A stretch of DNA of 64,000 nucleotides. It comes from Opitutus sp. ER46 (GTDB lineage: Bacteria; Verrucomicrobiota; Verrucomicrobiia; Opitutales; Opitutaceae). Where the stretch lies: assembly GCF_003054705.1 (NCBI RefSeq), contig NZ_QAYX01000025.1, positions 186,001 to 250,000 on the forward strand. The letters are read 5' to 3'. The notes under the pieces are model-generated. The model worked only from the letters and a program-made list of their open reading frames with translations. It had not been told where the DNA came from and did not search any database. Numbering within the stretch: the first letter of the stretch is position 1; each line of letters begins with the position of its first letter. The position numbers and the translations under genes are program-made. Below, piece by piece: positions 60,061 through 64,000 of this stretch.

Positions 60061-60184
60061 GATTGGAAAAAAGTGAGAGTGGGAGTGGGCGGCGCCAGCG
60101 CCGCGCGAAGTTGGGTGAGATGCGTGAGTCTGCAGAAACAGAGCTGACGGAGGTAGGAGAACAGCGAAGGCACCCAGACATGTG

Positions 60185-60245
60185 ACCGCGAAAGACGCGA
60201 ACGGGCGCGAAAATCGGGGGCGAGCGGGATTGCACCGCGCAAGCG
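60185..60245 (+). repeat. 61-nt direct repeat, left copy
   Basis: ACCGCGAAAGACGCGAACGG and the following GCGCGAAAATC...GGATTGCA region recur at 62830-62890 in the same orientation with about seven mismatches. The two copies bracket higBA and two secreted/unknown genes. Confidence 0.85.
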
Positions 60246-60360
60246 GAGTACCGGGCGCTTGGAACTGCGCGACGAAGGCTCGGAGTGGGCCACGCCACGC
60301 GTTATCTGCGGTTCGGATAATCCGCTTGACGGATCCTCTGCCTGGGACACGTTCCGGCGT

Positions 60361-60642
60361 GTGATCAAAAGCTTTGGGAGCGATGAGACCGCCAAGCTTT
60401 GGAACGGGGTGCGCTCACGTCGTTTGCCCTCGAATATCCAGCAGCGGGCACTCACGAAGCTTCAATTGATCAATGCCGCCGTCGAACTCGAGTTCCTTAA
60501 AATGCCGCCTGGAAATCGCCTCGAGTCGCTGAGTGGAACACGCAAAGGACAATACAGCATCCGCATTAACGACCAGTGGAGAATCTGCTTCCGGTGGACT
60601 GGCACTGATGCCGAACACGTTGAAATCATAGACTATCATTGA
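60361..60642 (+). CDS. higB: HigB/RelE-type toxin
   Basis: mRNA-interferase toxin of a type II pair. From GTG 60361 the product has 93 residues, the usual HigB length: [84 protein letters not shown] is the family core. The open frame upstream to 60259 is not family-like and starts within the repeat region. Three bases separate it from higA. Confidence 0.93.
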
Positions 60643-60645
60643 CTC

Positions 60646-60945
60646 ATGCCTGCGAAACTCACCATGGCCCATCCGGGCACGATCCTGCGGGACGAGTTCT
60701 TCGTGCCGCTTGGCATCACACAACTTGCCGCTGCGAAGGCGACCGGGATCCCGCAGAGCAGGCTCAGCGACATTCTGGCGGGTCGGCGCTCGATTTCGGC
60801 TGATACGGCTGCCCGACTTGGGCGCTTCTTTCAGGTCGATCCTCGAAACTGGCTCAACCTCCAGGTCTCCTATGACCTTTGGCTGGCCGAGCGGAAGCAC
60901 GCTCGTGCCCTCGCGCGCGTGCATCCCTTGAAGCTGGTCGCGTGA
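60646..60945 (+). CDS. higA: HigA antitoxin
   Basis: The 99-residue HTH protein neutralises HigB and probably represses the pair. HPGTILRDEFFVPLGITQLAAAKATGIPQSRLSDILAGRRSISADTAARLGRFFQVDPRNWLNLQVSYDLWLA is the HigA/VapI pattern, with the HTH near residues 26-48. The toxin-first order is characteristic of HigBA. Confidence 0.95.
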   Translation: MPAKLTMAHPGTILRDEFFVPLGITQLAAAKATGIPQSRLSDILAGRRSISADTAARLGRFFQVDPRNWLNLQVSYDLWLAERKHARALARVHPLKLVA

Positions 60946-60970: not shown

Positions 60971-61351
60971 TCAGTCGGTGGCCGGGGCGCGCCAGGGGTC
61001 CACGCGGAGGAAGTCGCTGCGAGCGACTTCATAGCTGCGCGAGACTTTGAGGAGAAGAAGACTCGCAGCCCCCCGGGCCCGCAGGAGCACCGGCTGAGGC
61101 GCCAGCGCCGGGTCGAATGTGCGGAAGCGTATGCCCATCCCGACGTCGGTCACCTTTGCCACCCCCGCGACGCGAAAGGCGGCCCGGAGCTTGATCGTGA
61201 TCTCTTCGAACCCGCGCTGGGCTTTGTTCACGCGAAAGAGCGCCTGAAATTTGTCCGACGACAGCTCGGCGTATGTCCCCCTGAGCGGAAGCTCGAAGAC
61301 GATCGACGCGGCATCCTCTGCGAAAACCCTGACGTCGCTCACATCCACCAA
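60971..61351 (-). CDS. Protein of unknown function overlapping the PDZ-like gene
   Basis: The 126-residue product (MVDVSDVRVFAEDAASIVFE, KFQALFRVNKAQRGFEEITIKLRAAFRVAGVAKVTDVGMGIRFRTFDPAL) has no signal peptide and reads as a small mixed alpha/beta domain. No family recognised. Its start overlaps the upstream gene's stop region by 13 bases, so the two are probably co-translated. Confidence 0.6.
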   Translation of the reverse strand: MVDVSDVRVFAEDAASIVFELPLRGTYAELSSDKFQALFRVNKAQRGFEEITIKLRAAFRVAGVAKVTDVGMGIRFRTFDPALAPQPVLLRARGAASLLLLKVSRSYEVARSDFLRVDPWRAPATD

Positions 61352-62625
61352 GCTCGACCGCCCGGCAGCTCACCGAGGATCGCCTCGGCGCTGCGCGACT
61401 CATCGCGCCAACGCTGGAGGTGAGCCGATTTCGGCCGCTTGCCGTCGACACCGACGAGTACCGTCCGCTGTGCGGGAGGCTGGGAGGGATCCACGCGCAC
61501 CGTCGTCTCGAGTTCGTCGCCAAACGCCCGTGCCGCTTCCGTGTACGCCCAGCGGTCCTCGTCCATTCCGACCTTCCCGAGCGCATCCGAGAAGAGCGCG
61601 CGCTGCGCATCGTCGGCGCGCGGCAGCTTGAGAAACGACTCCGATGGCGCGGCGGCAGTCTCTGCCGCCTGCTTGCCGAGGATGGCAATATCCTCCGCCT
61701 GCCCGGACAACGGTTCGAACGGCCACCGACCGGAAACCCTGCCGACCTGCGTGAGCCAGAACACCAGCTCCGCCTCGAAGCGGCTGCGCACCTCCTCGTC
61801 GGACAAGGTCGCGTCCTGCTTCGCCTTCTTTGCGGGACGGCACGACGCCTTTTCGAGCGCACCCGAGGGCGAGGTCAAAAACAGGCTGTGTCCCAGCGCA
61901 GGCGACTTTTGCTCTCGGATGATTTCCGTTCGCCCTCGCTGTTGCGTGACCCAGATCCGGTGCGTCGCCGAAGGCTGAACGATGCGCCACTCGTAACCGA
62001 GCACCGGCGCGAGGTAGCGCGGTTGCACGCCAAAAAAGGTTTCCGCCCGCAGCACCGACCAGATGCCGTTATCCAGGACATCCCGGGCGCGGTCTGAAAG
62101 TGGCCCGGGTTCCTTTACCTCCGCCGGGACGCGACCCTCCGGAGCCGTCCACGTCTTGCTGCCCCAGTGCGGAGCCGGCGATGGAATGGTCATGGTGACA
62201 ACTCGCCGGTCCTTCGATCCCGGTGCATGGACCCCGAAAGACCAAGTGACGTTCGTCTTTCCGGCGGCGAGCGCCGCCCACTTTCGGTCCTGCGTCTTCG
62301 CCAGTCCGATCAGGGCAAAAATAGAGCGACGCTTGCCGTCCACCTTGGTGATCAATTCGCTCGGGCGCAGGCCAGCCTTTGAGGCCGCGGTGTTCGGAAA
62401 GACCTCCGCGATCATGGCGTACGACGTACCGGGAATCGCCAGCTGACCCGTGACCCGAAAGCCAAACTCTTCGAAGCGGTCCGCCTTCACGTTGAAGGCT
62501 GCCAGGGTGGTTACGTCCTCGATCTCGTCACCCGGCGTGGGCTCCGCCGCGGAACCGTGCCAGCCTGCGGCAACCAATGCGAAAAGGACCAACCCGACGC
62601 GAACCGGTTTCGATGTGCCCCACAT
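61339..62625 (-). CDS. Secreted PDZ-like domain protein of unknown function
   Basis: From ATG 62625 the 428-residue product has a signal peptide (VRVGLVLFALVAAGWHGSAAE). A PDZ-like segment follows: FGFRVTGQLAIPGTSYAMIAEVFPNTAASKAGLRPSELITKVDGKRRSI, near residues 52-102. No protease domain follows; the rest (WRIVQPSATHRIWVTQQRGR, EAELVFWLTQVGRVSG, then a charged tail) is unrecognised. It may be a surface or periplasmic scaffold. It lies between the 61-nt direct repeats, with the overlapping unknown gene downstream. Confidence 0.7.
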   Translation of the reverse strand: MWGTSKPVRVGLVLFALVAAGWHGSAAEPTPGDEIEDVTTLAAFNVKADRFEEFGFRVTGQLAIPGTSYAMIAEVFPNTAASKAGLRPSELITKVDGKRRSIFALIGLAKTQDRKWAALAAGKTNVTWSFGVHAPGSKDRRVVTMTIPSPAPHWGSKTWTAPEGRVPAEVKEPGPLSDRARDVLDNGIWSVLRAETFFGVQPRYLAPVLGYEWRIVQPSATHRIWVTQQRGRTEIIREQKSPALGHSLFLTSPSGALEKASCRPAKKAKQDATLSDEEVRSRFEAELVFWLTQVGRVSGRWPFEPLSGQAEDIAILGKQAAETAAAPSESFLKLPRADDAQRALFSDALGKVGMDEDRWAYTEAARAFGDELETTVRVDPSQPPAQRTVLVGVDGKRPKSAHLQRWRDESRSAEAILGELPGGRAWWM

Positions 62626-63611
62626 GGCTGCTTTGTGAGTGGTATTGGCGCAACGAGTTCCGTGAATTCCGGGTAGATCCGCGGAAACCCGATGCGGATC
62701 TATCCAGAGAACCATGTGACACCGTGACGCCCTGAGCCTGCTCAGTTGCGGGCCCGTTTGGATGCAATCTGAACACCGATACACGGACCAACAGGTAGGT
62801 CCGAAAACAACCAAGGCGCCGGATAGCTAACCGCGAAAGACGCCAACGGGCGCGAAAATCTGGAGCGAGTCGGATTGCATCGCGAAAGCGCGGAACGGGA
62901 TGAGGTTGCCGCGTGAAGTCACAGCTGGCCGATGGCGGTGAGATCGGGCAGCAAACAGCGTAATGCATCGCATACTCCTTTTCGTCATCGCGAAACACTC
63001 CGGAGACGTCGACCGTCGGCGCCAAAGTGGTCGCCGTTCGTTCAACCTCTAGGATTTCTGACAGCAGTGAAGAAGAAAGCCTTTGATGCTATCGCTGCGT
63101 CGCGGCGCTGGCGGCGCGCGACCAGCCGGCGCCTGAACAAGATGACGCCGAGGAATAGATCGCATTCTTAAGTCGCCGGCTGGAGAACAGGCCGGCAGAA
63201 CGCACCAAGCCAAAACGCGAAGTCGCGTGCCGCTGACATTGCTGATCTCGCCCCGCACGCGGGCGGAGGGCTGAGTCGGCTGCACGTCGGGCTTCGCAGA
63301 GTGCGTACCGACGCCCTGGGTGTCAGCGCCCACGTATGCTCTTGATGGGATCAGCAGCTTTACCGCGGCACAGAGCGCGTTGGTGAGCGATTTCGGGCGG
63401 GTGTATCGGCGAACGAACCCGCATAAGGATCCGCGCGAACGAGGCGAAGTCAGGGTTCAGTAACCGCGCAAATGCGAGGTCACGAAGCCAAGCAGCCCAC
63501 TTATAGATATAGGTATCCAGCTGAATAATCGGAGTTGTCTCTAAATATCGATATGCTCTACCTTAGCAGTGTCGCCAAACCACGGCCGTGTTGCCATCTT
63601 CCCCTCATCTC
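62626..63611. other. Non-coding or degenerate region with repeats and a composition shift
   Basis: Nearly 1 kb without a gene I can support. It contains a GTGACGC-type fragment (62716-62738), a CTGAG/CTCAG hairpin (about 62732-62748), a GGACC/GGTCC hairpin (about 62786-62803) and the right 61-nt repeat (62830-62890). Short open frames from 62930 to 63480 on both strands resemble nothing known and may be gene remnants. From about 63480 the sequence turns A+T-rich. Confidence 0.5.
62830..62890 (+). repeat. 61-nt direct repeat, right copy
   Basis: ACCGCGAAAGACGCCAACGG onward matches 60185-60245 in the same orientation with about seven mismatches. It lies upstream of the PDZ-like gene's start. 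Confidence 0.85.
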
Positions 63612-64000
63612 GTGAATCGAAATATTGCTCTCGAGCGTGCAATTGGAGATCTGGAAGTCTTGCTGTCAAAGACCGAGGTCGGCGAAGCAGATTTTCAGCG
63701 CTTCTTTGAGGCACACACTTGTGCTTTTGAGGCGCTAGGGTATAGCAGCTTCATTCCTCACGTTCGGCTGAGGACTTCGCAAGGGGATCTCATCCCCGAT
63801 TTTTTGGTCCGACGGGTCGATGGTACGTATGAGATCTGTGACATAAAGACTCCCGGCGAGAGAGTTTTGAAGAGGGTGAAGAACCGCACTGAGTTCTATG
63901 CAAAGATATCCACAGAATACGCTGGGCAGTTGCGATGCTATGGCGAGTTTTTCGATGACCGGGCGAGCACCATACTATTTGAGAAAGAATATGGAATAGT
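63612..64000 (+). CDS. Shedu-like (DUF4263) PD-(D/E)xK nuclease, N-terminal fragment
   Basis: A frame from GTG 63612 stays open to the window edge, 129 codons (GTG 63588 is an alternative start; a stop lies at 63564). It reads ...DFQRFFEAHTCAFEALGY, then PHVRLRTSQGDLIPDFLVRR, VDGTYEICDIKTPGERVL, and AGQLRCYGEFFDD. LIPDFLV followed by a beta strand and D-I-K gives the PD...(D/E)xK nuclease core. The upstream F..AH region and downstream Q...Y..FF match the layout of Shedu/DUF4263 immune nucleases. Base composition is much less GC-rich than neighbours, suggesting acquisition. The end and any partners lie outside. Confidence 0.55.
   Translation, partial: MNRNIALERAIGDLEVLLSKTEVGEADFQRFFEAHTCAFEALGYSSFIPHVRLRTSQGDLIPDFLVRRVDGTYEICDIKTPGERVLKRVKNRTEFYAKISTEYAGQLRCYGEFFDDRASTILFEKEYGI

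Follow-up and report, generated by a model that had tools for sequence, protein, structure and literature searches.

A putative Shedu nuclease with its catalytic domain first in an inserted segment of the Opitutus sp. ER46 genome

Background

Solved structures are available for type I Shedu proteins (8ti8, 8ti9 and 8tia; 8ps4 and 8ps5), which we take to be from B. cereus and E. coli, and the architecture of type II is reportedly defined in Gu et al. 2025. The account that follows draws on portions of the papers cited. Types I and II have been named and type I has been described (PMC12409362). In published Shedu proteins, an extra domain regulates the nuclease (PMC12904381, PMC12137116), and specificity has been ascribed to diverse N-terminal domains (PMC12904381, PMC12137116, PMC12409362). 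The E. coli SduA protein is a homotetramer whose N-terminal clamp engages the ends of DNA and thereby permits nicking, always at the same distance (PMC12904381), and disruption of either the GHKL ATPase or the nuclease lysine abolishes the anti-phage activity of VcSduA (PMC12137116).

Here we describe a gene at the right edge of a 64,000-nt stretch of Opitutus sp. ER46 DNA (contig NZ_QAYX01000025.1, positions 186,001 to 250,000), which is referred to below as the window. We consider it probable that this gene encodes a complete, horizontally acquired single-gene Shedu nuclease (DUF4263, PD-(D/E)XK) with an N-terminal catalytic domain and a C-terminal regulatory or sensor domain, which would act against phages by a proposed autoinhibition.

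Results and discussion

The gene and its base composition

An initial annotation, made from the letters of the window, had read a truncated Shedu-like nuclease in the last open frame from the motifs PDFLV, YEICDIKTP and QLRCYGEFFDD, all of which are present there in the order stated. The frame (63588-63998) reaches the right edge of the window uninterrupted, and extension to the right on the same contig, as had been proposed, gave a complete protein of 418 aa, from GTG 63588 to a stop codon at window-equivalent 64844. The truncation is an effect of the window edge alone. Translation might instead begin at a second GTG, at 63612.

The coding sequence has a GC content of 47.9 % against 67.7 % for the window, and a value as low as this was found in three of 1555 sliding windows (1257 nt each, across 79 kb), which bears out the A+T-richer setting remarked on in the annotation. 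At third codon positions the GC fraction (GC3) is 0.52, compared with 0.86 in recF and 0.89 in TauE. The features of the region are collected in Table 1.

Table 1 Features of the inserted segment and its left boundary in the window
Feature	Position in window	Strand	Remarks
recF-like gene (Pfam SMC_N), left boundary of segment	58948..60060	+	
Window part of inserted segment	60061..64000	.	from recF stop 60060 to TauE/SafE ATG, taken at window-equivalent 65012
HigB-like toxin gene (PF05015, 62.2 bits)	60361..60642	+	GTG 60361 likely start
HigA-like HTH antitoxin gene (HTH_3, 41.1 bits)	60646..60945	+	
Small ORF overlapping end of 61339..62622 gene	60971..61351	-	no PADLOC match
PDZ-like protein gene, function unassigned	61339..62622	-	PDZ matches below Pfam cut-off; secreted look by eye
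Window part (codons 1-137) of putative nuclease-first Shedu protein	63588..64000	+	full gene, L002:2588-3844
Start of SduA_C/DUF4263 match	63684..64000	+	aa 33-179, end beyond window

An inserted segment between recF and TauE/SafE

A segment of 4951 nt (4.95 kb) lies between the stop codon of the recF-like gene and the ATG of the TauE/SafE gene. Within it lie the Shedu gene, a small ORF and the genes for HigB, HigA and a PDZ-like protein. The HigB-like toxin gene is followed by the HTH antitoxin gene, as in a HigBA pair. The annotation had the nuclease sitting next to a toxin-antitoxin pair; the pair is present, and two opposite-strand ORFs intervene, so that the description is loosely true. 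The Shedu and HigBA genes may be functionally linked. No partner gene for the nuclease was recognised beside its single ORF. A stretch 43 % identical to the PDZ-like protein is found elsewhere in one genus-mate (G018:C13).

When TauE was searched for in the genus, all 27 genomes matched, one of them (G020) weakly (E 1.5e-4), and 16 were examined for the empty site. In 14 of these 16 genomes recF and TauE/SafE are adjacent (tblastn matches at most 49 nt apart). None of the 16 has HigB, HigA, the PDZ-like protein, the small ORF or Shedu between the two genes (tblastn, E 1e-5, 6.5-7.5 kb each, with the last 74 aa of HigB as its query). In two of the genus-mates (L059 and L062), recF and TauE are separated by a different small gene, one ORF of about 190-200 aa. 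Judged from these arrangements, genes may have been inserted repeatedly at the recF-TauE junction. Neither a tRNA nor an Rfam family over the gathering score was detected in 18 kb of locus L002 (right junction included, left not), and no integrase was noticed. We infer that the segment was acquired horizontally, in one or more events.

An intergenic repeat of 81 nt (core ACCGCGAAAGACGCNAACGGGCGCGAAAAT) is present at window positions 60174-60254 and 62819-62899, in copies that are 80 % alike and that bracket HigBA and the PDZ-like gene. It occurs in at least 36 places in the host genome (40 of 56 candidates scored), some of them as tandem units of about 310 nt, and the core was present in 15 of the 16 regions that were inspected. 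By eye, most inspected regions lie between ordinary genes. At one place (L089:924-1373; G000:C19, about 88.4-88.9 kb), two copies in opposite orientation flank a 129-aa PD-(D/E)XK protein (PF13366, 123.5 bits). With repeats around both this protein and HigBA, the repeat adjoins accessory-type genes, at least there.

Family membership and active-site residues

The PF14082 search that had been recommended for the extended protein gave a match to SduA_C (PF14082, DUF4263) of 30.5 bits (hmmscan, complete protein; E = 4.8e-7, aa 33-179), above the Pfam curated cut-off of 27 bits. In PADLOC, 11 SduA profiles matched at E up to 10, the best with 58.4 bits (E = 1.7e-16), and no match was obtained in NCBIfam or PHROGs. 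At the level of sequence, membership of the 418-aa protein in the Shedu family, which had been proposed by motif, is supported by Pfam, PADLOC and residue conservation in agreement.

Twelve Shedu nuclease domains, including that of the window protein and leaving aside L019 (G159) and L021 (G425), were aligned, and six columns are identical in all of them (E33, D71, K87, P89, Q114 and G150). E33, D71, D85-x-K87 and Q114 fit the conserved columns of a PD-(D/E)XK active site, those of solved SduA included. At position 85 the window protein has Asp and the other 11 of the 12 rows have Glu; Asp would be compatible with the (D/E)xK motif. The profile of the 12-row alignment matches the solved Shedu chains 8ti8, 8ti9 and 8ps4 at E-values of at most 1.3e-32, with the same residues aligned. 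Chain 8ti9 has Ala at the aligned Glu position, which suggests an active-site mutant. The nuclease is predicted to be catalytically active.

Two short frames, G159 (L019, 259 aa) and G425 (L021, 218 aa; both lengths stop to stop), also exceed the SduA_C cut-off. Both have Glu at the position of the active-site Lys of other Shedu proteins, and these Shedu-type proteins are possibly inactive or work differently.

The Asp for Glu in (D/E)xK, the non-ATG start and the roughly 1 kb upstream without an assigned gene could point to a decaying remnant, that is, an acquired gene that has lost its function. We regard this as most improbable, as the 418 codons are uninterrupted and the residues shared by every Shedu domain in the alignment have been kept.

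Domain order and a relative in UBA6056

The nuclease occupies about residues 10-195 of the 418, with about 225 residues after it. The initial annotation had anticipated an extra N-terminal domain. This is not what the complete gene contains, where nine residues precede the nuclease and an in-frame TAG lies eight codons 5' of GTG 63588, so that in this frame the product has no N-terminal domain. The N-terminal regulatory domain that stands ahead of the nuclease in type I Shedu is absent from the window protein.

When 14 Shedu proteins were aligned, the flanks before and after the nuclease block were 9 and 224 residues in the window protein and 13 and 166 in one relative; the other 12 have 24-285 residues before and 0-36 after the block, with the nuclease last or alone. 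The comparison omits L014 (H23), L022-L026 (other PF14082 matches) and L018 and L020 (repeats of L005 and L004), and reads L017, L019 and L021 from stop to stop.

The relative, the one found with the same order, is a 365-aa protein (P0002, L008:7953-9050) of Verrucomicrobia bacterium UBA6056. It is 28 % identical to the window protein over aa 13-252 and is likewise nuclease-first, with a shorter C-terminal part. In a tree of the nuclease block the two proteins form one group with support 96/97. Their end branches are long (1.37 and 1.19), and the two nucleases are therefore distant relatives.

The UBA6056 protein matches 22 PADLOC SduA profiles, of which two, PDLC00378 (287 positions) and PDLC00398 (289 positions), are nuclease-first. 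It aligns with positions 7-192 of the former and 30-187 of the latter, which places the nuclease near the start and leaves just 95 and 102 profile positions after the match. The window protein matches PDLC00378 at E 1.6e-5, its best stretch (aa 145-225) running some 30 residues beyond the nuclease block, and PDLC00398 weakly (E 0.015). As these two profiles are already nuclease-first, the domain order is not unprecedented in the defence library.

Distribution

The window protein matched one of 95 relatives and one of 27 same-genus genomes, in each case its own genome. Within the phylum, three of 387 genomes matched, namely its own, UBA6056 (G270) and one with a canonical Shedu (G310). A two-row profile of the window and UBA6056 proteins matched two of the 288 genomes of UBA6056's class (UBA6056 itself and a canonical Shedu, G479) and one of the 384 of the host's class, which was the host; the relative, phylum and class samples overlap. 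The PF14082 family itself was found in at least nine of the 387 phylum genomes at E up to 0.001 and over the cut-off in at least six. This tally is a lower bound because the six-frame search missed, at its first look, the Shedu ORF of the host genome (0 of 1), which hmmscan passes.

With the window protein alone, none of 32 pattern matches in genome_contigs and none of seven in viral_contigs was confirmed, and plasmids and phages gave no match at E 1e-5. At E up to 10, 13 plasmid records appeared, covering parts of aa 7-232 only. The two-row alignment (A1) gave one confirmed match out of 131 in genome_contigs, which was UBA6056, and none out of 69 in viral_contigs. When the UBA6056 protein was the query, none of three matches in viral_contigs was confirmed and no phage record was found; 59 plasmid records were, and among the 20 matches listed none covers 80 % of the query. 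Eight plasmid matches were inspected (H1-H4 and H21-H24), seven of which are nuclease-last; match H23 (L014), an ORF of 188 aa, has transposase genes on either side. An Azospirillum lipoferum plasmid carries an intact 408-aa Shedu-like ORF (L013:2134-3360) at a place where the PLSDB table has no gene.

Low GC content, insertion between recF and TauE and patchy distribution fit a mobile defence gene. A PD-(D/E)XK nuclease of Shedu ancestry could also have a job outside defence, in DNA repair or in the maintenance of an element. The segment does adjoin a recF-like gene, and HigBA is the sole further defence locus recognised in it, with PADLOC scans covering the nuclease and the two opposite-strand ORFs. 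However, the patchiness (1 of 27 genomes in the genus and 3 of 387 in the phylum, one of the three with a canonical Shedu) speaks against such a job, as do the low GC content and the insertion, and we hold this alternative to be rather remote. An anti-phage role for the Shedu protein is the more plausible one.

The C-terminal part

When the C-terminal parts of the window and UBA6056 proteins were searched in isolation, neither matched any PADLOC profile. In Pfam the best match of the window part had an E-value of 0.069 and the UBA6056 part had none, and no solved structure was matched by the UBA6056 part. At E up to 1 there was no plasmid match for either part and no phage match for that of the window protein. 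A glutamine-deamidase family (OspI/ORF169b) appeared for the last 70-80 residues or so in Pfam and the PDB, at E-values of 0.069-0.68, below the cut-off, and was taken as chance.

Compared with each other, the two C-terminal parts gave a BLASTP E-value of 0.42 and an hhalign probability of 1.2 %. Over their whole length, the local alignment score was reached by 28 of 1000 shuffles and the global score by one of 1000. The likeness is carried by the first 57 or so residues after the nuclease (3 of 1000 local, 1 of 1000 global), a boundary chosen post hoc from where the full-length match ended. For the remainder, the scores were reached by 201 of 1000 (local) and 40 of 1000 (global) shuffles, so that the local score does not support homology, and nothing in the UBA6056 protein corresponds to the final 68 residues of the window protein (312 and 486 of 1000). 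By these scores the resemblance between the two C-terminal parts is weak.

AlphaFold, run on a two-row alignment, gave for the UBA6056 protein a model that is strand-rich past the nuclease, with a mean pLDDT of 36; its C-terminal part alone also had a mean pLDDT of 36. By eye, the window part resembles a LamG/concanavalin-like domain in its motif order (WHH..LRVDG..IGS..LSERKIEE). As candidates for LamG, the parts scored -1.3 bits (window; reached by 52 of 500 shuffles) and -1.9 bits (UBA6056; 232 of 500) against a profile of eight domains from the host's own genome, the hhalign probability was below 1 %, and Pfam Laminin_G was absent at E up to 10.

From the by-eye LamG likeness and the low-confidence strand-rich model comes the idea of a beta-sandwich, which the LamG sequence tests did not support. 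We give little credence to the proposal that nuclease-first Shedu proteins form a branch whose trigger module has shifted to the C-terminus and represents a novel type of sensor, perhaps a beta-sandwich that recognises a glycan or protein of the phage rather than a DNA end.

The C-terminal part might instead serve in oligomerisation or in holding DNA, with no sensing of signals, the specificity then residing within the Shedu-like nuclease domain. Short Shedu-type frames with little besides the nuclease (G159 and G425) would suit such a role, though Glu replaces Lys in both. So would the fast divergence of the C-terminal part between the two relatives, but a sensor would fit that divergence equally well. 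In published Shedu proteins, moreover, the extra domain regulates the nuclease (PMC12904381, PMC12137116, as far as the portions consulted go), and we think the structural role unlikely.

Proposed mode of action

Under the preferred reading, a Shedu nuclease governed by its C-terminal domain, that domain would keep the nuclease inactive until it meets a phage-linked signal, which could be a DNA end, a DNA modification or a phage protein; the nuclease would then cut phage DNA. Autoinhibition and sensing are proposed here by analogy with described Shedu proteins, and phages would be both the targets and the source of the trigger.

Comparison with known Shedu systems

In the portions surveyed of the Shedu literature (PMC12904381, PMC12137116, PMC12409362 and PMC12948488, a set apart from the primary structural papers), no description of a nuclease-first Shedu was found. 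Its novelty is provisional and is judged with the definition of type II outside the comparison.

VcSduA (type I-D) likewise unites the DUF4263 nuclease and a distinct regulatory domain in a single chain, but its regulator is an N-terminal GHKL ATPase (PMC12137116, in the portion consulted), and the window protein has no GHKL Pfam match. With the solved type I proteins (8ti8/8ti9/8tia and 8ps4/8ps5) the window protein has in common the DUF4263 nuclease domain and the conserved residues. In those chains, however, the nuclease is C-terminal (residues 200-377 of 382 and 218-404 of 411), behind an N-terminal part; in the window protein the order of catalytic and regulatory parts, as predicted from its sequence, is the reverse of that in type I. 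A nuclease-first Shedu offers a natural test of how the core behaves without an N-terminal sensor. A variant that lacks an N-terminal domain and bears an unrelated domain at its other end would demonstrate that control of one nuclease core is possible from both termini.
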